Assembly (NCBI RefSeq): GCF_002163855.1
Contig: NZ_CP019332.1
Location: forward strand, 2,707,145-2,771,144
DNA length: 64,000 bases
Origin: Winogradskyella sp. PC-19
Lineage (GTDB): Bacteria > Bacteroidota > Bacteroidia > Flavobacteriales > Flavobacteriaceae
Direction: 5' to 3'
The notes beneath the pieces are model-generated. The model saw nothing but the letters and a program-made list of their open reading frames with translations, was not told the origin of the DNA and did not search any database. The position numbers and the translations under genes were made by a program. Shown here in pieces: positions 21,157 through 46,102 of this stretch. Each line of letters starts with the position of its first letter. Position 1 is the stretch's first letter.

Positions 21157-22905
21157 CTAACCGCCAGCAGCAATTTGCATTAAAATTGTACAGCCAATCG
21201 CTGCTATAGTTCCGACGGCATAACCAAACACTGCTAATAAAACACCTACTGTCGCCAATGAAGGATGAAAAGCAGATGCAACAATAGGAGCAGAGGCAGC
21301 ACCACCAACATTGGCTTGACTACCAACCGCCAAGAAAAAGTAAGGTGCTTTTATGATTTTTGCGACCACAATAAGTAATAACGCGTGAATGGTCATCCAT
21401 ATTATACCAATAAGAATAAGCCAACCGTTATCAAAAATTAAGGATAAATCCATTTTCATACCTATAGTTGCAACTAGTATATAAATAAAGACACTCCCGA
21501 ATTTACTAGCGCCAGCACCTTCGTAATTTTTGGCTTTGGTATATGATAAGCCTATAGCTAGTAAGGTCGCGATACTAATCATCCAAAAGAATTCTGAGCT
21601 TAAGAATGTAAATATATTTTTTGTGGTTGAGCTCTTAATACCATCAACTAGGATTTCAAAATAAGGACCTAAATATCCTGCGCACAAATGTGCAATACTG
21701 ACAGCACCAAACGCGAGCGCAGCAATAATCATAATATCTGTAAGAGAAGGATTCCTTTTTACACTTTCAGAAAATTGAGAAACTTTTTCTTTCAAATCTT
21801 CAATTGCTGAGGTGTCAGCTTTTAACCATTTATTGAAGCGATTTCTTTTTCCTATACCGATTAAAATTAATGCCATCCAAATATTTGCCACTACAATATC
21901 TACAAATACCATTCCTCCATATAGTTTTTGATTATACCCATAAATTTCGAGCATTGCGGTTTGGTTGGCACCACCACCTATCCAACTTCCAGCCAAAGTA
22001 GATAAGCCACGCCACACAGCATCTGGGCCTGTAACACCTATTAAATCTGGATTAAACAGCGCGATTAAAAGTAATGCGATTGGACCTCCAATTAAAATCC
22101 CAATTGTTCCTGCAAAAAACATAACTAAGGCTTTCCAGCCTAGATTAAATACTCCTTTTAAGTCAATACTTAGTGTCATTAATACCAAAGCTGCTGGTAA
22201 TAAATAACGACTTGATACATAGTAGAGATTAGTGCCATGTTTCACAATTGAATTGTCTTTTTCTATTGTTTCCCATTCTGGTGAGATTAGCCCCAATGTT
22301 GTCAACAGGGCAGGTAGCATATATGCAACAAATAGTCCAGGTACAATTTTGTAAAACTTTGACCAGAAACCAGTTTTGAAGGATTCAGAAAAGAATACTA
22401 TACCTAGAGCTAGCATTAAAAGGCCAAAAACTATTGAATCTTTTGTAAATAGAGGCGCTTTAACTATTGCTGTCGATTTTTTGCTAATAGAATTGATAAA
22501 TACTTTTTTATCTTCTTTCAAAAAATCTGCTTTTTCAATCTGAATAATTCTTTTGTCAACAAAACTTTCATCAGATTTGATTTCAATATTAAAAATTATG
22601 TCAGAATCAAATACAACTTCTTTTTTAGATTTAAATTTTATTGTAGCACTATAATTATTAACTTCTACTTTAAAATTATTTACGTATTTATTTAGATTGA
22701 TATCCTTAAACTTAGCAATGGAATCTAAAGTTCTTAATTCAATCTGAAACTCATTAGATTTTATGTCGTTAATCCTTACAGGTATTTCAAATTTTTTCGA
22801 ACTGTTTTTATATACGCTTTCTATTATCAATTCTTGTGCAATAGAAAAATTTGAAACAAAAAACATTATAAAAAATGGTAGGATAGTTTTAAAATTTCTG
22901 TTCAT
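21157..22905 (-). CDS. DUF819 family membrane protein with N-terminal extension
   Basis: A 582-residue protein in two parts. Residues 1-24 are a signal peptide (cleavage near SIAQ), 25-150 are a beta-rich extracytoplasmic segment, and 155-580 form a multi-span DUF819 (YjcL-like) domain with about ten helices and conserved glycine-rich stretches such as GGGANQTAMLEIYG and SQANVGGAASAPIVASAF. DUF819 proteins are usually about 400 residues and begin directly with the membrane part, so the extension is unusual. The DUF819 role is unknown, probably transport. It is preceded by TATTTTTG at about 22926-22937 (minus strand). Confidence 0.85.
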   Translation of the reverse strand: MNRNFKTILPFFIMFFVSNFSIAQELIIESVYKNSSKKFEIPVRINDIKSNEFQIELRTLDSIAKFKDINLNKYVNNFKVEVNNYSATIKFKSKKEVVFDSDIIFNIEIKSDESFVDKRIIQIEKADFLKEDKKVFINSISKKSTAIVKAPLFTKDSIVFGLLMLALGIVFFSESFKTGFWSKFYKIVPGLFVAYMLPALLTTLGLISPEWETIEKDNSIVKHGTNLYYVSSRYLLPAALVLMTLSIDLKGVFNLGWKALVMFFAGTIGILIGGPIALLLIALFNPDLIGVTGPDAVWRGLSTLAGSWIGGGANQTAMLEIYGYNQKLYGGMVFVDIVVANIWMALILIGIGKRNRFNKWLKADTSAIEDLKEKVSQFSESVKRNPSLTDIMIIAALAFGAVSIAHLCAGYLGPYFEILVDGIKSSTTKNIFTFLSSEFFWMISIATLLAIGLSYTKAKNYEGAGASKFGSVFIYILVATIGMKMDLSLIFDNGWLILIGIIWMTIHALLLIVVAKIIKAPYFFLAVGSQANVGGAASAPIVASAFHPSLATVGVLLAVFGYAVGTIAAIGCTILMQIAAGG

Positions 22906-24437: not shown

Positions 24438-25298
24438 TTAGTGACTTAAAGTTCCTGTATTTACTACTGGAGACGCGTCTTTGTCGCCGCATAACACTAC
24501 CATTAGGTTACTTACCATAGCAGCTTTGCGCTCTTCATCTAGATTGACAACATCTTTTTTGTTTAGTTCTTCAATAGCCATTTCGACCATACTTACTGCA
24601 CCTTCTACAATTTTGTGTCTTGCAGCTACAATAGCTGTAGCTTGTTGACGCTTAAGCATAGCATTTGCAATTTCTTGAGCATAAGCTAAGTATCCAATAC
24701 GAGCTTCGAGTACTTCGATACCTGCAATAGACAAGCGCTCATCTATTTCTTTTTCTAGAGCAGTACTCACTTCGTTAACACTAGAACGAAGTGTGATGTC
24801 TTCGTCATGACCTTCATCAGCGAAATTGTCATAAGGGTACATACTCGCTAACTTACGTACGGCAGCATCTGTTTGCACTCTAACAAAGTTTTCGTAGTTA
24901 TCGACATCAAAAGCTGCTTTATATGTATTTTCTACACGCCAAACTAAAATGGTACTTATCATTACTGGATTACCTAGTTTGTCATTTACCTTTAAACGCT
25001 CACTATCAAAGTTACTAGCACGTAATGATATTTTCTTTTTTGTATAAAAAGGATTCACCCAGTAGTAACCATTCTTTTTTACAGTGCCAACATACTTTCC
25101 GAATAAAAGAAGAACTCTAGATCCGTTAGGTTGTACCATTAAAAAACCAAAAGCAATGACTAAAGCTGCTACGATACCAAATGCAGGCCATGGAGTTTCG
25201 TAGATTGGGATAAGTGCAATACTCCCAAAAAATAATATTAGGAATACAAATAACATTAGGTAACCATTTGCTGGGACGATGATTTTCTCTTCTTTCAT
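24438..25298 (-). CDS. SPFH/band 7 domain membrane protein
   Basis: A 286-residue SPFH (stomatin/prohibitin/flotillin/HflK) protein that should assemble at the inner membrane. There are two N-terminal hydrophobic helices (about 9-29 and 31-50), then the SPFH domain (NPFYTKKKISLRASNF through EVLEARIGYLAYAQEIANAM, about 82-215), and a helical C-terminus with RQQATAIVAARHKIVEGAV. It heads the six-gene operon. The Arc-RHH gene at the far end supports the known association of this SPFH subtype with a small RHH protein. Confidence 0.9.
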   Translation of the reverse strand: MKEEKIIVPANGYLMLFVFLILFFGSIALIPIYETPWPAFGIVAALVIAFGFLMVQPNGSRVLLLFGKYVGTVKKNGYYWVNPFYTKKKISLRASNFDSERLKVNDKLGNPVMISTILVWRVENTYKAAFDVDNYENFVRVQTDAAVRKLASMYPYDNFADEGHDEDITLRSSVNEVSTALEKEIDERLSIAGIEVLEARIGYLAYAQEIANAMLKRQQATAIVAARHKIVEGAVSMVEMAIEELNKKDVVNLDEERKAAMVSNLMVVLCGDKDASPVVNTGTLSH

Positions 25299-25340
25299 AA
25301 TTTTAGATTTAATTGGTTAATCATTTATTTTGATATTAAA

Positions 25341-25380
25341 ATGATATCATAAAGATATAATATATTCTGTTAGTATACAA
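25341..25380 (-). promoter_or_regulatory. SPFH operon promoter with palindromic operator candidate
   Basis: Reading the minus strand, TTG (25380-25378) and TATCTTTA (25357-25350, one mismatch to TAnnTTTG) are spaced by 20 nt. A perfect palindrome ATGATATCAT occupies 25341-25350, at the expected start point. An operator for the operon's own RHH protein is a reasonable guess. Confidence 0.5.
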
Positions 25381-25429
25381 ATACATTCTTTTGTTACAAT
25401 TAAAAAAACTTTTTCAAGTAAAATAAAGT

Positions 25430-25446
25430 TTGGCACGCCATTTGCA
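25430..25446 (+). promoter_or_regulatory. Sigma-54 (-24/-12) promoter
   Basis: TTGGCACGCCATTTGCA matches the YTGGCACGRNNNTTGCW consensus at 13 of 14 defined positions, with the invariant GG (25432-25433) and GC (25444-25445) exactly 10 nt apart. The predicted start is about 25457. No gene follows on the plus strand before a terminator at 25534-25566, so it appears to drive a small RNA. Confidence 0.8.
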
Positions 25447-25456
25447 ATTATAGAAG

Positions 25457-25566
25457 TGTAATGATAAATGCGAGAGTCGGCTGGTTACCGACATACTACA
25501 AACGCTTTCATTACGATTGGTTGGTTAGTTAGTAAAAAAGCCGTTTCATTTGAAACGGCTTTTTTA
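25457..25566 (+). ncRNA. Predicted sigma-54-dependent structured small RNA
   Basis: About 110 nt from the predicted sigma-54 start to a strong terminator. GTAATGA (25458-25464) pairs with TCATTAC (25508-25514), GCG (25470-25472) with CGC (25503-25505), and an inner hairpin GTCGG/CCGAC (25476-25480, 25488-25492) sits within. The single-stranded linker GATTGGTTGGTTAGTTAG separates this from the terminator hairpin. An ORF of 23 codons (25461-25532) overlaps, but it would begin about 4 nt from the start point and its bases are constrained by pairing. Function unknown; trans-acting riboregulation is one inference. Confidence 0.6.
25534..25566. terminator. Bidirectional terminator (small RNA / alpha-beta hydrolase)
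   Basis: AAAAAAGCCGTTTCA (25534-25548) and TGAAACGGCTTTTTT (25551-25565) form a perfect stem with T-runs on both strands. It serves the small RNA on the plus strand and the hydrolase gene on the minus strand. Confidence 0.9.
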
Positions 25567-25590: not shown

Positions 25591-26526
25591 TTACTCTTGT
25601 TTTTTAATAAATCCGACTATGGAATTAATCAATTCTGGATTGATTTTTCTAAATGATTCACCATATGATTTAGAATTTTCTAATCTATCACCTTCTATTG
25701 TAAATAAAACATGATTCATGTTATCTATAATCTTTAATTCAGCATCTGGATTTGCATTTGCTAAAAGTTTGGCTTCTTCTACAGAAACCTGTAAGTCTTT
25801 TGTGCCATTAAGGATTAGGGTCGGTGTTTTTAATTCGTTTATTAAAGTACTTGGATTGTAAGCCATCCAGGAAATCATAAATGGTTGTGTGTCTAAATTA
25901 AACATTGAAGCAAGCTCAGGCGGAAAATCTGTTGTTGTCTTGCCTGCTTTTAAATTAGATATAACCTTCTTAGTTTGATCAACAAATTGTCTTGCGGTAT
26001 TATTTATTTGTTCCACAATGACATCTCCGATGTTTTGACCAGCACCAGCAATGGATATAAAACCCTTTACGCTACTATCAATTGCAAGTAGTCCGACCAA
26101 ACTACCTTGGCTATGACCAGCTATGTATATGTTTGAATATTCATTTTTATCCTTAAAATATTTGACGACATCTTTTGCATCATACACAAAATCTTCAAAA
26201 CGCATAGACTTAACATCGACCTTGCCAGTTTTGATTTGCTTGACGATGCGTTTATCATATCTAAAAGATGCAATATCATTTTTTGCTAATCCTTCAGCTA
26301 ATTTTTTAAGATTATTACTTTTTAAAAAGTTTTGATTGCCATTACGGTTGGTTGGACCAGAGCCAGCAATGATTATAACCAAATCATTTTTACTATAACT
26401 TTTTGGAATAATTAAGCTGCCATCGATTAATTCCGAAATTTCAATCTCAGTTTCAGTGTATGTTTTTTCCTGAGCAGAAGTAAAGCTTACAAGTAGAAAA
26501 GCTAATACGTATAATATGAATTTCAT
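25591..26526 (-). CDS. Secreted alpha/beta hydrolase
   Basis: A 311-residue protein with a signal peptide (1-19, ...FTSAQ) and an alpha/beta hydrolase fold. The nucleophile elbow GHSQG is at 137-141 with S139, the oxyanion region IIIAGSGPTNRNG at 51-63, and the acid and base are likely in LNGTKDLQV and NMNHVLF near the C-terminus. This is the dienelactone hydrolase/S9-like group often found in the periplasm. Substrate not predictable. On the minus strand a TATCTTTG -7 box (26558-26551) and a palindrome TAAACGTTTA (26571-26580) lie upstream. Confidence 0.85.
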   Translation of the reverse strand: MKFILYVLAFLLVSFTSAQEKTYTETEIEISELIDGSLIIPKSYSKNDLVIIIAGSGPTNRNGNQNFLKSNNLKKLAEGLAKNDIASFRYDKRIVKQIKTGKVDVKSMRFEDFVYDAKDVVKYFKDKNEYSNIYIAGHSQGSLVGLLAIDSSVKGFISIAGAGQNIGDVIVEQINNTARQFVDQTKKVISNLKAGKTTTDFPPELASMFNLDTQPFMISWMAYNPSTLINELKTPTLILNGTKDLQVSVEEAKLLANANPDAELKIIDNMNHVLFTIEGDRLENSKSYGESFRKINPELINSIVGFIKKQE

Positions 26527-27526: not shown

Positions 27527-28213
27527 ATGAAGTTTTACAAAAATAGAGTATTTATCCTTTTTGTTGGATTAGTCTTTTTGGCAATGCAGCAAAAAAATGC
27601 GATTCCTGATAGTTTTGTAAAGGTTTCTGATGTAATTTCGGATTTAAATGTTGAGCTTAAATATTATTCAACTCATAATTTTGTTGGCGATACTATAGAT
27701 GGTTATAAATCCAATACGCTTTATCTCACTAAGGCATCTGCAAAGCGCCTAAAATTGGTTCAAGATGAGTTGCAAACGCAAAACTTATGTCTTAAAGTTT
27801 ATGACGGTTATAGACCGCAGCGTGCAGTCAATCATTTTGTGCGTTGGGCACGACAGATTAATGATACTTTAAAAAAGGCTGAATTTTATCCTCATGTAAA
27901 CAAGCGAGATCTATTTAGAGAAGGTTATATAGCTAGTAAATCAGGACACAGTCGCGGTAGTACCGTTGACTTAACAATCACTAATGGAGAAACTGGAATT
28001 CCTTTAGATATGGGAAGCCCTTTTGATTTTTTTGGTGAACAATCTTGGGTTGATTATCCCAATATTACTGAAGAACAAAAGAAAAATCGTCAGCTTTTAC
28101 AGTCAGTAATGATTAAGTATGGCTTTAGAAATTATCCCAAAGAATGGTGGCACTTTACGCTACGAGGAGAACCATTTCCAAGCACTTTTTTTGATTTTGA
28201 GATTGTGGATTAA
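27527..28213 (+). CDS. D-Ala-D-Ala dipeptidase, M15 family (VanX-like)
   Basis: A 228-residue M15D peptidase that hydrolyses D-Ala-D-Ala dipeptide. Zinc ligands H141 and D148 lie in GHSRGSTVDLTI and H209 in KEWWHFTL with catalytic E206; DGYRPQRA (93-100) is the substrate Arg loop. An N-terminal hydrophobic segment (about 7-20) indicates export, pointing to peptidoglycan turnover in the periplasm rather than vancomycin resistance, and no van genes are present. Its stop overlaps the stop of the convergent gene by 3 bases in TTAA. Confidence 0.9.
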   Translation: MKFYKNRVFILFVGLVFLAMQQKNAIPDSFVKVSDVISDLNVELKYYSTHNFVGDTIDGYKSNTLYLTKASAKRLKLVQDELQTQNLCLKVYDGYRPQRAVNHFVRWARQINDTLKKAEFYPHVNKRDLFREGYIASKSGHSRGSTVDLTITNGETGIPLDMGSPFDFFGEQSWVDYPNITEEQKKNRQLLQSVMIKYGFRNYPKEWWHFTLRGEPFPSTFFDFEIVD

Positions 28214-38953: not shown

Positions 38954-38988
38954 TTTGACATTTTCTGAATATTGGCAGTACTTTTGCC
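38954..38988 (+). promoter_or_regulatory. grpE promoter region with overlapping sigma-54-like motif
   Basis: TTTG (38954-38957) and TACTTTTG (38979-38986), 21 nt apart, give a Bacteroidota promoter. In the same bases TTGGCAGTACTTTTGCC (38972-38988) has GG and GC exactly 10 nt apart and matches 11 of 14 defined sigma-54 positions. Which polymerase uses it is open. The start of grpE is at 39027. Confidence 0.55.
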
Positions 38989-39026: not shown

Positions 39027-39563
39027 ATGGGCAAAAAAGATAAAAACCAAGAGGTCGAAGAACCTCAAATTGAAGCAACTGAAACAGAAACTGCTGAAGA
39101 AGAAGTACTAACTGTTGAAGAGCAATTACAAGAAGATTTAGCAAAAGAAAAAGATAAGTTTATGCGTCTTTTTGCTGAGTTCGAAAACTATAAAAAACGA
39201 ACTACAAAAGAGCGTATTGAATTGTTTAAAACAGCCAGTCAGGACGTTATGGTGTCTATGCTACCGGTATTGGATGATTTTGAGCGTGCATTAATGCATA
39301 TCGAAGAAGATAAAGAAGCTGAAGAATTACGTAAAGGTGTATTGTTAATTTACAATAAGTTGATTTCAACGTTAGAGCAAAAAGGTCTATCAAAAATTGA
39401 AATTAATCAAGGCGATGTGTTTAATGCTGATAATCACGAGGCAGTAACGCAAATACCAGCGCCAACTGAAGACTTAAAAGGAAAGATTATTGATGTAGTA
39501 GAGCGTGGATACAAACTGGGCGATAAAGTTATTCGCTTCCCGAAGGTAGTTATTGGTCAATAA
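39027..39563 (+). CDS. grpE: Nucleotide exchange factor GrpE
   Basis: A 178-residue GrpE, the nucleotide exchange factor of DnaK. An acidic N-terminus (1-35) leads into a long coiled coil (about 35-95, with FMRLFAEFENYKKRTTKER) and the C-terminal beta domain (VVERGYKLGDKVIRFPKVVI). Length is normal. dnaJ follows after 32 nt; dnaK is not in the window. Confidence 0.96.
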   Translation: MGKKDKNQEVEEPQIEATETETAEEEVLTVEEQLQEDLAKEKDKFMRLFAEFENYKKRTTKERIELFKTASQDVMVSMLPVLDDFERALMHIEEDKEAEELRKGVLLIYNKLISTLEQKGLSKIEINQGDVFNADNHEAVTQIPAPTEDLKGKIIDVVERGYKLGDKVIRFPKVVIGQ

Positions 39564-39595
39564 TTAAAACAATTTTGTTTTACTGAAAATACATT

Positions 39596-40708
39596 ATGAA
39601 AGAAGATTATTACGACATATTAGGCGTTAACAAAAGTGCCTCAGCTGCAGAAATTAAAAAAGCATATCGAAAGATGGCTTTAAAATATCATCCAGATAAA
39701 AACCCTGATAATAAAGAAGCAGAAGAAAAGTTTAAAAAAGCTGCTGAAGCATATGAAGTTTTAAGTGATGCTGACAAAAAATCACGTTATGACCAATTTG
39801 GACACCAAGCTTTCGAAGGTGGTGCCGGTGGTTTCGGTGGTGGCGGTATGAATATGGATGATATATTCAGTCAGTTTGGCGATATTTTTGGAGGCGGCTT
39901 TGGTGGTGGTTTCGGCGGCTTTGGTGGCGGCGGACGTCGTGTTGTAAAAGGAAGTAATCTTCGTATACGTGTTACACTTACTTTAGAAGACATAGCTAAC
40001 GGTGTCGAAAAAAAGATAAAAGTTAAGCGAAAAGTCCAAGCAGATGGTGTAACCTATAAAACATGTAGTACATGTAACGGACAAGGTCAAGTGACTAGAG
40101 TTACAAATACAATCCTGGGAAGAATGCAAACAGCCTCAGCTTGTCCAACATGTGGTGGAGCTGGTCAAAGTATAGACAAAAAACCTTCTGAAGCAGACGC
40201 TCAAGGATTAGTAGCTAAAGAGGAAACTGTAAGTGTCAAAATACCTGCTGGTGTTGTAGATGGAATGCAGCTTAAAGTTACAGGGAAAGGAAATGCAGCT
40301 CCAGGTGATGGAATGGCGGGTGATTTATTAGTCGCTATACAAGAAGAAAATCATGAGACTTTAAAGCGAGAAGGCGATAATTTACATTACGATTTGTATG
40401 TAAGCTTACCTGACGCAGTTTTAGGTTCTTCAATGGAAATAGATACAGTAACAGGTAAGGTACGTATCAAAATAGAACCAGGAGTTCAGTCTGGAAAGAT
40501 TTTACGACTAAGAGGTAAAGGTATACCGAGTATTAATGGTTATGGTAAAGGAGATTTACTAGTTCATGTTAACGTTTGGACGCCAAAAACATTAAACAAA
40601 AAACAAAAAGATTTTTTTGAAGGTATGAGAGAAGATGAGCATTTTCAGCCAAAACCTGAAAGTTCAGATAAGTCCTTTTTCGAAAAAGTGAAGGATATGT
40701 TTTCTTAA
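39596..40708 (+). CDS. dnaJ: Chaperone DnaJ with a reduced zinc-finger region
   Basis: A 370-residue DnaJ that stimulates DnaK and binds unfolded protein. The J domain (4-67) has HPD at 32-34; a Gly/Phe-rich linker (74-113) follows, then the cysteine region and two C-terminal substrate domains. Only two zinc motifs are present, CSTCNGQG (157-164) and CPTCGGAG (183-190), instead of the canonical four CxxCxGxG, so at most one zinc site can form. I recall the same reduced form from other flavobacterial DnaJ proteins. The C-terminus ends [10 protein letters not shown]. Confidence 0.95.
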
Positions 40709-44938: not shown

Positions 44939-46102
44939 ATGCAACATATACTAATTATAGAAGATGAAGCGGCGATTCGCCGAGTTTTGGTAAAGATTCT
45001 CTCTGAAGAAAGTGATACCTATGCTGTCGAAGAAGCTGAAGACGGTTTGGTAGGTATAGAAAAAATAAAAAAGAAGGATTACGACCTAGTACTTTGTGAT
45101 ATCAAAATGCCAAAAATGGATGGTGTAGAGGTTTTAGAAGCTGCTAAAAAGATTAAACCTGAAACTCCGATGGTTATGATTTCAGGTCATGGTGATTTAG
45201 ATACTGCTGTAAATACAATGCGTTTAGGTGCTTTTGATTATATATCAAAACCACCAGATTTAAATAGATTACTAAATACAGTACGTATTGCATTAGACAG
45301 AAAAGAATTGGTTGTAGAGAATAAACGCCTAAAAAAGAAAGTATATAAAAAATATGAAATGATAGGCGATAGCCCAGCTATTGAACGTATAAAAGATATG
45401 ATTGATAAGGTTGCGCCAACCGATGCGCGTGTATTAATTACTGGTCCAAACGGAACAGGAAAAGAATTGGTTGCGCATTGGTTACATCAAAAAAGTGAGC
45501 GTAGTAAAGGTCCAATGATAGAGGTTAATTGTGCTGCAATACCTAGTGAGTTGATTGAGAGTGAATTATTTGGGCATGTAAAAGGTGCATTTACATCAGC
45601 AGCAAAAGACCGTGCTGGTAAATTTGAAGCTGCAAATGGTGGAACAATTTTCTTAGATGAAATCGGGGATATGAGTCTTTCGGCGCAAGCCAAAGTATTA
45701 CGTGCTTTACAAGAAAGTCGTATACAACGTGTTGGTAGTGATAAGGATATAAAAGTAGACGTTCGCGTTGTAGCTGCAACGAATAAAGATTTAAAAAAGG
45801 AAATTGCTGACGGAAAATTCAGAGAAGATTTATACCATAGACTTGCTGTAATTCTTATTGAAGTGCCAGCGCTAAATGATAGACGAGAAGATATTCCATT
45901 ATTGATTTCTCATTTTGCTAAAAAGATATCTGAAGAGCAAGGTAATGCTGGTAAAACATTCTCTGACAAAGCAGTAAAATTACTTCAGAATTACGATTGG
46001 ACAGGGAATATTAGAGAGCTCCGTAATGTAGTTGAGCGACTTATAATTCTTGGAGAAAAAGAAGTTAGCGAATCAGATGTAAAATCGTTTGCTTCAAAAT
46101 AA
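44939..46102 (+). CDS. NtrC-family sigma-54 response regulator without HTH
   Basis: A 387-residue regulator: receiver domain (1-120, phosphoacceptor D54 in LVLCDIKMPKMDG, S82, K104) and AAA+ domain (about 140-375). Walker A is GPNGTGKE (169-176), Walker B TIFLDE (236-241), and the sigma-54-contacting loop reads GAFTSA (216-221) rather than GAFTGA. It ends just after NIRELRNVVERLIILGEKEV with no Fis-type HTH, so it cannot bind enhancers in the usual way and may activate sigma-54 polymerase from solution. No histidine kinase is adjacent. It lies in an operon with a DUF6268 protein and PPK2. Confidence 0.92.
   Translation: MQHILIIEDEAAIRRVLVKILSEESDTYAVEEAEDGLVGIEKIKKKDYDLVLCDIKMPKMDGVEVLEAAKKIKPETPMVMISGHGDLDTAVNTMRLGAFDYISKPPDLNRLLNTVRIALDRKELVVENKRLKKKVYKKYEMIGDSPAIERIKDMIDKVAPTDARVLITGPNGTGKELVAHWLHQKSERSKGPMIEVNCAAIPSELIESELFGHVKGAFTSAAKDRAGKFEAANGGTIFLDEIGDMSLSAQAKVLRALQESRIQRVGSDKDIKVDVRVVAATNKDLKKEIADGKFREDLYHRLAVILIEVPALNDRREDIPLLISHFAKKISEEQGNAGKTFSDKAVKLLQNYDWTGNIRELRNVVERLIILGEKEVSESDVKSFASK

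Follow-up and report, generated by a model that had tools for sequence, protein, structure and literature searches.

The locus and its predicted RNA

On the forward strand of the window (the whole 64-kb stretch of DNA that was analysed), positions 25429 to 25565 hold, in this order, a sigma-54-type promoter box, a short A/T-rich gap, a folded RNA, a tail and an intrinsic terminator (Table 1). The predicted small RNA (sRNA) lies between a divergent Band_7/SPFH gene and a convergent alpha/beta hydrolase gene, a relative of the latter being present in 35 of 68 fetched stretches, some of which represent one place fetched twice. The ORF list of the window contains no + strand ORF of at least 80 aa between those at 21965-22207 and 27527-28213, which bears out the claim of an earlier, sequence-only reading of this DNA that no gene of annotated size lies on the strand of the RNA. 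Adjoining the start of the Band_7 gene, at 25325-25362 in the window and also in relatives, is a conserved GATATTAAAATGATATCATAAAGATATA block, possibly the promoter or operator of that gene.

Table 1. Coordinates of the features discussed in the text
Feature	Position	Strand	Remarks
Sigma-54-type box TTTGGCACGCCATTTGCA	25429..25446	+	0 mismatches to TGGCACN5TTGCA; GGCA and TTG constant in relatives
Predicted sRNA	25457..25565	+	Inferred +1 to end of terminator; about 109 nt
Outer stem, 5' arm TGTAATG	25457..25463	+	Pairs with 25509-25515 in the fold
Inner stem GCG/CGC around the hairpin	25470..25505	+	Sequence and fold
Hairpin	GTCGG 25476-25480, loop CTGGTTA 25481-25487, CCGAC 25488-25492	+	Sequence and fold
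Outer stem, 3' arm CATTACG	25509..25515	+	Minimum-energy fold
Single-stranded tail TTGGTTGGTTAGTTAGT	25517..25533	+	Unpaired in the fold; proposed seed or protein site
Intrinsic terminator	25534..25565	+	14-bp stem, 4-nt loop, T run
Band_7/SPFH protein, divergent neighbour	24438..25298	-	PF01145, E 3.1e-23; context, outside the RNA
Alpha/beta hydrolase, convergent neighbour	25591..26526	-	PF12146, E 1.8e-13; context
Response regulator with sigma-54 interaction domain, candidate activator	44939..46102	+	PF00072; PF00158, E 1.4e-71

The minimum-energy fold of 25457-25565 reaches -33.8 kcal/mol, compared with -20.5 +/- 3.1 kcal/mol for shuffled sequences (z -4.33; 0 of 200 shuffles as good). It contains the nested pairing that the sequence-only reading had described by eye (outer stem, GCG/CGC and GTCGG/CCGAC), and the segment does end in a terminator; the observation of a promoter, a structured segment and a terminator is thus confirmed. 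What that reading had missed is the tail TTGGTTGGTTAGTTAGT between the outer stem and the terminator.

Conservation and covariation among relatives

Related loci were gathered by a search with the Band_7 protein, of which the best 80 of 547 were taken; they are mostly from Winogradskyella, with Psychroserpens, Kordia, Bizionia, Formosa, Xanthomarina and others also represented. Box, RNA body and tail were found by script (up to 3 box mismatches) at the same place upstream of the Band_7 gene in 73 of these 80 loci, the loci without a match being L011, L027, L032, L062, L066, L069 and L068, the last with only 18 nt of upstream sequence. Of the 73, 71 have a strict terminator behind the tail according to the script; in L035 one was recognised by eye, and L060 is cut by the end of its contig. 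Retention of box, body and tail at one position in so many of the loci shows that the RNA locus is not a product of chance.

Covariation was counted on a hand-set structure (outer stem, inner stem, hairpin and terminator) in 43 of 53 aligned Winogradskyella-type sequences; the ten dropped were the window's own type, L001, L002, L003, L008, L013, L014, L024, L030 and L046, the window's own sub-type, which has a hairpin of another length, being among those left out, so that it is the equivalent hairpin in relatives that covaries. In these 43 sequences, 94.2% of the cells are paired, as against 31-47% when the structure is slid by 1-3 columns, with values of 97.3% for the outer helix and 100% for the terminator. 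Changes on both sides are seen in nine pairs, a number that 1 of 500 shuffles attains. None of the 500 shuffles reaches the covariation score of 0.139, whereas the number of additional pair types does not stand out from them (266/500). In a second clade, with the core GTTTATTGAGTGGTTACTTTAAAC, 91.0% of the cells are paired versus 28-52% when slid (16 of 28 aligned sequences), and the shuffle tests are weak (23/500 for covariation and 60/500 for the percentage paired). Single-sequence folds of nine distant members, terminator omitted, are no better than shuffles in seven cases (z -1 to 0.5), and RNAalifold returned only 10 pairs on a mixed alignment, a low count that we attribute to the misalignment of two hairpin lengths. 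The helices therefore covary clearly in one clade and weakly in the second, and the lack of compensatory changes that the sequence-only reading had named as speaking against it did not occur.

In the alignments, the tail TTGGTTGGTTAG stands 3' of the outer stem and 5' of the terminator. It is the longest conserved block in four alignments (A1-A4), the body varying far more by eye.

It might be asked whether the segment encodes a small protein instead of a functional RNA, as an ATG in the window's outer stem opens a 23-codon frame that ends in the tail. When the first ATG is taken in each of 61 sequences, the window's among them, just 23 have a frame that runs on into the tail without a stop, and these fall into three registers. 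The compensatory changes favour structure; we rejected the small ORF for its lack of conservation and hold this explanation to be highly improbable.

The promoter box and putative sigma-54 regulation

The sequence TGGCACGCCATTTGCA at 25431-25446 (+) is the sole match without mismatch to TGGCACN5TTGCA within the window. Its -24 GG (25432-25433) and -12 GC (25444-25445) are separated by N10 and place the +1 near 25457, in agreement with the exact GG-N10-GC element and the start initially proposed. Matches with up to 2 mismatches number 16 in the window versus 12.0 expected in shuffles, the weaker ones being at chance level. In a set of 74 promoter sequences (window included; 58 distinct promoter segments), picked with up to 3 box mismatches and the GG fixed, GGCA and TTG are identical at fixed spacing in all 74, and the base after TTG, the -12 C, is not conserved (T 40, C 22, A 11, G 1). 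Together with the 73 of 80 loci that carry the box, this goes against the outcome of an unconserved box, on which the sequence-only reading had also staked its proposal. The rpoN domain PF04552 was found in 199 of 199 family genomes, a set to which the window's own genome does not belong. A housekeeping-promoter reading of the box was discarded, since TAnnTTTG is not at the right place in the relatives (by eye). Judged from this box, the RNA would be transcribed in an rpoN-dependent manner.

The sequence-only reading had also pointed to a sigma-54 activator 19 kb away. The protein is real and comprises a receiver and a PF00158 domain (Table 1). Its AAA lid ends at residue 376 of 387 and no DNA-binding domain (HTH_8) was detected in it; it might act without an enhancer site. 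Among 37 distant upstream regions of the RNA, no clear shared activator site emerged, the top enriched 7-mer being TCCAAAA, in 11 of 37. With neither a DNA-binding domain nor a clear shared upstream site, the link between this activator and the sRNA is unsupported.

Sigma-54-type promoters with mapped transcription start sites exist in Flavobacteriaceae: for F. psychrophilum, a table of selected start sites with such promoters lists genes for chaperones, motility and exported proteins as well as the sRNA Rfp36 (PMC9723704). A sigma-54 sRNA had been put forward as new to Flavobacteriaceae, which, in view of the entry for Rfp36 in that table, was too strong. Rfp36, named there as a putative regulatory RNA and known from strain THC02-90 with its start site at 840245, is like the present RNA a small RNA of a member of the Flavobacteriaceae with a -24/-12 promoter (SM4, sigma-54-type; PMC9723704), the likeness being so far one of description. 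In the window, grpE-dnaJ (39027-40708) is preceded by a box-like TGGCAGTACTTTTGCC at 38973-38988, with two mismatches (a chance-level count) and located after GACATTTTGACA; as a sequence match, this site would agree in part with the chaperone sigma-54 group of F. psychrophilum.

Distribution in the family and a second class of RNA

A covariance-model search gave many weak matches, apparently driven by the terminator, and patterns were used in its place. A pattern of the box, 41-101 nt and the tail was found in 129 of 397 family genomes and its reversed control in 0 of 397. At least five of the 129 genomes (G067, G087, G098, G204 and G299) have, by eye, matches other than the sRNA: the one in G067 (L193) is coding and has no strong terminator, and those in the other four look like a WHDDW gene. 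Several genomes carry more than one copy, namely G359 (four tandem copies plus one), G185 (three close copies plus one), G352 (three) and Kordia (three neighbouring copies plus one next to Band_7). In an order-level sample of 296 genomes, there were seven matches, six of them in genomes already counted in the family set, and a plasmid search with the RNA as query returned five short matches, none spanning 80% of the query. In a wider sense this RNA, described as isolated in the sequence-only reading, is not so: it is one member of a set that extends across the family and is in some genomes arranged in tandem.

In genomes without this box form (class I), we met a class II RNA, which consists of a hairpin with a GUGGUU loop, a second hairpin and the tail GGTTGGTTATTTAG. 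By eye, four of the seven distinct loci viewed show a TAAATTTG box of housekeeping type in the upstream region, where GTTAA repeats are also present. At L294, L298, L302, L308, L309, L315, L326 and L327, the class II sequences are near-identical across genomes; the DNA upstream of these loci has the GTTAA direct repeats and shows, by eye, no sigma-54 box. A loop-plus-tail pattern covering both classes matched 61 of 199 genomes, versus 1 of 199 for the reversed control; reading of the sequences assigned 33 of the 61 to class II.

In Rfam scans, tRNA alone reached the gathering threshold in the window, nothing but tRNA did so in 20 class I loci, and no family did in eight class II loci, among which one place is counted twice. 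The best match below threshold was BTnc231 (RF04180; 29.2 bits versus a gathering score of 80.4); membership was rejected, the similarity residing mainly in the terminator and in A/T-rich sequence. The Qrr sRNAs of Vibrio, which depend on sigma-54 and LuxO as well as on Hfq, resemble the predicted RNA in being sigma-54-driven, in having several paralogous copies per genome and in ending at an intrinsic terminator. They belong to another phylum, and the likeness was checked only via the Rfam scan, in which tRNA alone attained the gathering score.

The tail at mRNA 3' ends

The tail 13-mer TTGGTTGGTTAGT occurs in 135 of 199 family genomes, often several times in each. When one locus was fetched from each of 30 genomes, a strict terminator lay directly 3' of the 13-mer in 17, roughly half of these being the sRNA itself, as against 93 of 6000 random positions. 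The mRNA tails lie after the stop codons of ClpB, exported RS-rich, WHDDW, DUF350, YHS-like, LuxE-like and other genes, where ClpB was identified by Pfam in one copy and by eye in the rest, and the YHS-like assignment is below the Pfam cut-off. For tail-bearing genes with a complete 5' end, a sigma-54 box (up to 1 mismatch) is present in 8 and absent in 9 of the 17 genes of a first set; in a second set, in which L244 runs off its stretch, it is present in 7 of 7 RS-rich genes and absent in seven ClpB genes and L245. The background rate at the same tolerance is 13 of 514 ORFs.

The RS-rich genes (L108, L109, L139, L143 and L237-L243) encode an exported protein with an arginine/serine-rich C terminus and combine a sigma-54-type box with the tail in the 3'UTR; the one protein tested (L109) had no Pfam match. 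In 5 of 7 ClpB leaders, inspection by eye picked out a GACATTTTGTC repeat followed by a weaker GG-N10-GA site. Upstream of clpB in L230-L234, the repeat is an inverted one and lies about 12 nt upstream of GG-N10-GA. Judged from its sequence and position, it is a possible activator site of a heat-shock sigma-54 group; no such repeat was seen by eye upstream of the sRNA.

The association of the tail with terminators, and its presence behind genes as diverse as those listed, would also be expected if it were a mere element of transcript 3' ends, acting in termination, processing or stability, with the structured body as the regulatory part. The window sits ill with such a role, as its only exact 13-mer is that of this RNA, with no second copy, and so does the body, which is far more variable than the tail by eye; we consider this explanation unlikely.

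The main rival to a pairing function of the tail is that the GGUU-containing tail and loops form a protein-binding motif, the sRNA serving as a decoy that titrates an RNA-binding protein off the 3'UTRs of tail-bearing mRNAs. A protein-binding site would account equally well for a tail common to sRNAs and mRNA 3'UTRs. In class II RNAs, GGUU recurs at three places: the hairpin 1 loop, the top of hairpin 2 and the tail. Of 104 RNAs, 50 contain UGGUU in the body and 29 in the terminator part, where shuffles lead one to expect 6.6 and 8.9, respectively; four rows were dropped beforehand, and related sequences inflate both the body and the terminator figures. However, GGUU outside the tail is absent from 29 of 104 RNAs, GGUU itself is near expectation in the terminators (31 versus 25.7), and hairpin 2 of the class II fold has its GG base-paired. 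Decoy RNAs such as CsrB and RsmZ, which titrate CsrA, resemble class II in repeating a short motif in loops and single strands; their motif is GGA, in contrast to GGUU in class II, and the partner protein of class II is only hypothetical. We regard titration of a protein as less likely than pairing; the 5'UTRs have an excess of sites complementary to the tail, which a decoy does not need.

Sites complementary to the tail near start codons

An initial anti-tail pattern was confounded by the RNAs' own reverse complements, and octamers with matched controls were substituted. The anti-tail octamer AACCAACC, located 3-20 nt before ATGAAAAA, gave 104 matches in 54 of 80 genomes, of which about 20 are reverse complements of tail-bearing RNAs themselves, compared with 34 matches (30/80 genomes) and 42 matches (33/80) for two control octamers of equal dinucleotide content. 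Sampled matches proved to be starts of ORFs of at least 80 aa in 17 of 30 cases for the real octamer and in 9 of 20 and 10 of 20 for the controls, the real sample being drawn one locus per genome and the control samples being the first 20 rows. Scaled up, this corresponds to about 59 ORF starts for the real octamer versus 15 and 21 for the controls, a 3.9- and 2.8-fold excess over two control octamers only. Homologous genes recur with anti-tail sites across genomes (L154/L307, L289/L301 and L251/L311/L312, in a comparison of 36 genes, one of them fetched twice).

In the 40 genomes that carry the box form there were 42 anti-tail matches versus 16 and 16 for the controls, and in the 40 that lack it 62 (45 after subtraction of 17 class II reverse complements) versus 18 and 26. 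Class II RNAs are carried by 18 of the latter 40 genomes; the other 22 still have 25 matches versus 10 and 16. Because of this excess in genomes without either form, part of the anti-tail signal may be unrelated to the RNA, unless diverged copies are present there, and our confidence in a trans-acting sRNA is lowered accordingly. Overall, the anti-tail excess supports pairing at start regions to a moderate degree and without specificity. The tail itself, G/U-rich, conserved and unpaired next to a terminator, is suggestive of a seed.

Discussion

Our preferred reading, to which we assign a probability of roughly one half, is that the locus encodes a trans-acting sRNA under sigma-54 control, the tail of which would pair near start codons and most likely repress translation. 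Sigma-54 RNA polymerase would occupy the -24/-12 box, and transcription, started near 25457 by an activated bEBP, would yield an RNA of about 109 nt with its 3' end at the intrinsic terminator. Folding of the first two thirds of this RNA into the outer stem and the inner hairpin would leave the tail UUGGUUGGUUAGUUAG single-stranded before the terminator and available to AACCAACC-type sites close to the start codons of mRNAs, many of these putative targets having signal peptides (by eye). By analogy with FopS and GibS of Bacteroides, pairing would most likely repress translation, and several mRNAs with the same tail before their terminators may release 3'UTR sRNAs that share the seed. The sequences themselves display the box, the fold with its covariation, the terminator and the conserved tail, as well as the multiple copies and the sharing of the tail with mRNAs; transcription, rpoN dependence, pairing, repression and targets are what we infer from them.

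The Bacteroides sRNAs are, on the account given in PMC11697453, a precedent in the phylum: FopS sRNAs pair near start codons and one member is derived from a 3'UTR, and FopS/GibS share with the present RNA the multicopy occurrence in Bacteroidota, a single-stranded seed along with a terminator and a 3'UTR-derived member. FopS sRNAs differ in their housekeeping sigma-ABfr promoter and in a seed placed at the 5' end (PMC11697453).

The interpretation of the sequence-only reading is supported with two corrections: there is a precedent in the family, and the tail UUGGUUGGUUAG, not the promoter alone, is the most telling element of this RNA. None of the published titles among our literature search results describes it, and we found little literature on post-transcriptional control in Flavobacteriaceae, where accounts of the sigma-54 group have dealt mostly with mRNAs. 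Being conserved and, in some genomes, tandem, the sRNA family with its sigma-54-type promoter and its short conserved tail offers a defined entry point: a single promoter, a single motif and a set of candidate targets. The mRNA 3' ends that share the tail suggest that one signal may travel on several transcripts. We tentatively propose, as a possibility that we rate well below an even chance, that the sigma-54 stress response of Flavobacteriaceae has a second, RNA-level arm, in which one tag, UUGGUUGGUUAG, is common to dedicated sRNAs and to the 3' ends of mRNAs under sigma-54 control. If this were true, promoter induction would release many RNAs with a common seed or decoy site, which would jointly reset the translation of exported proteins.
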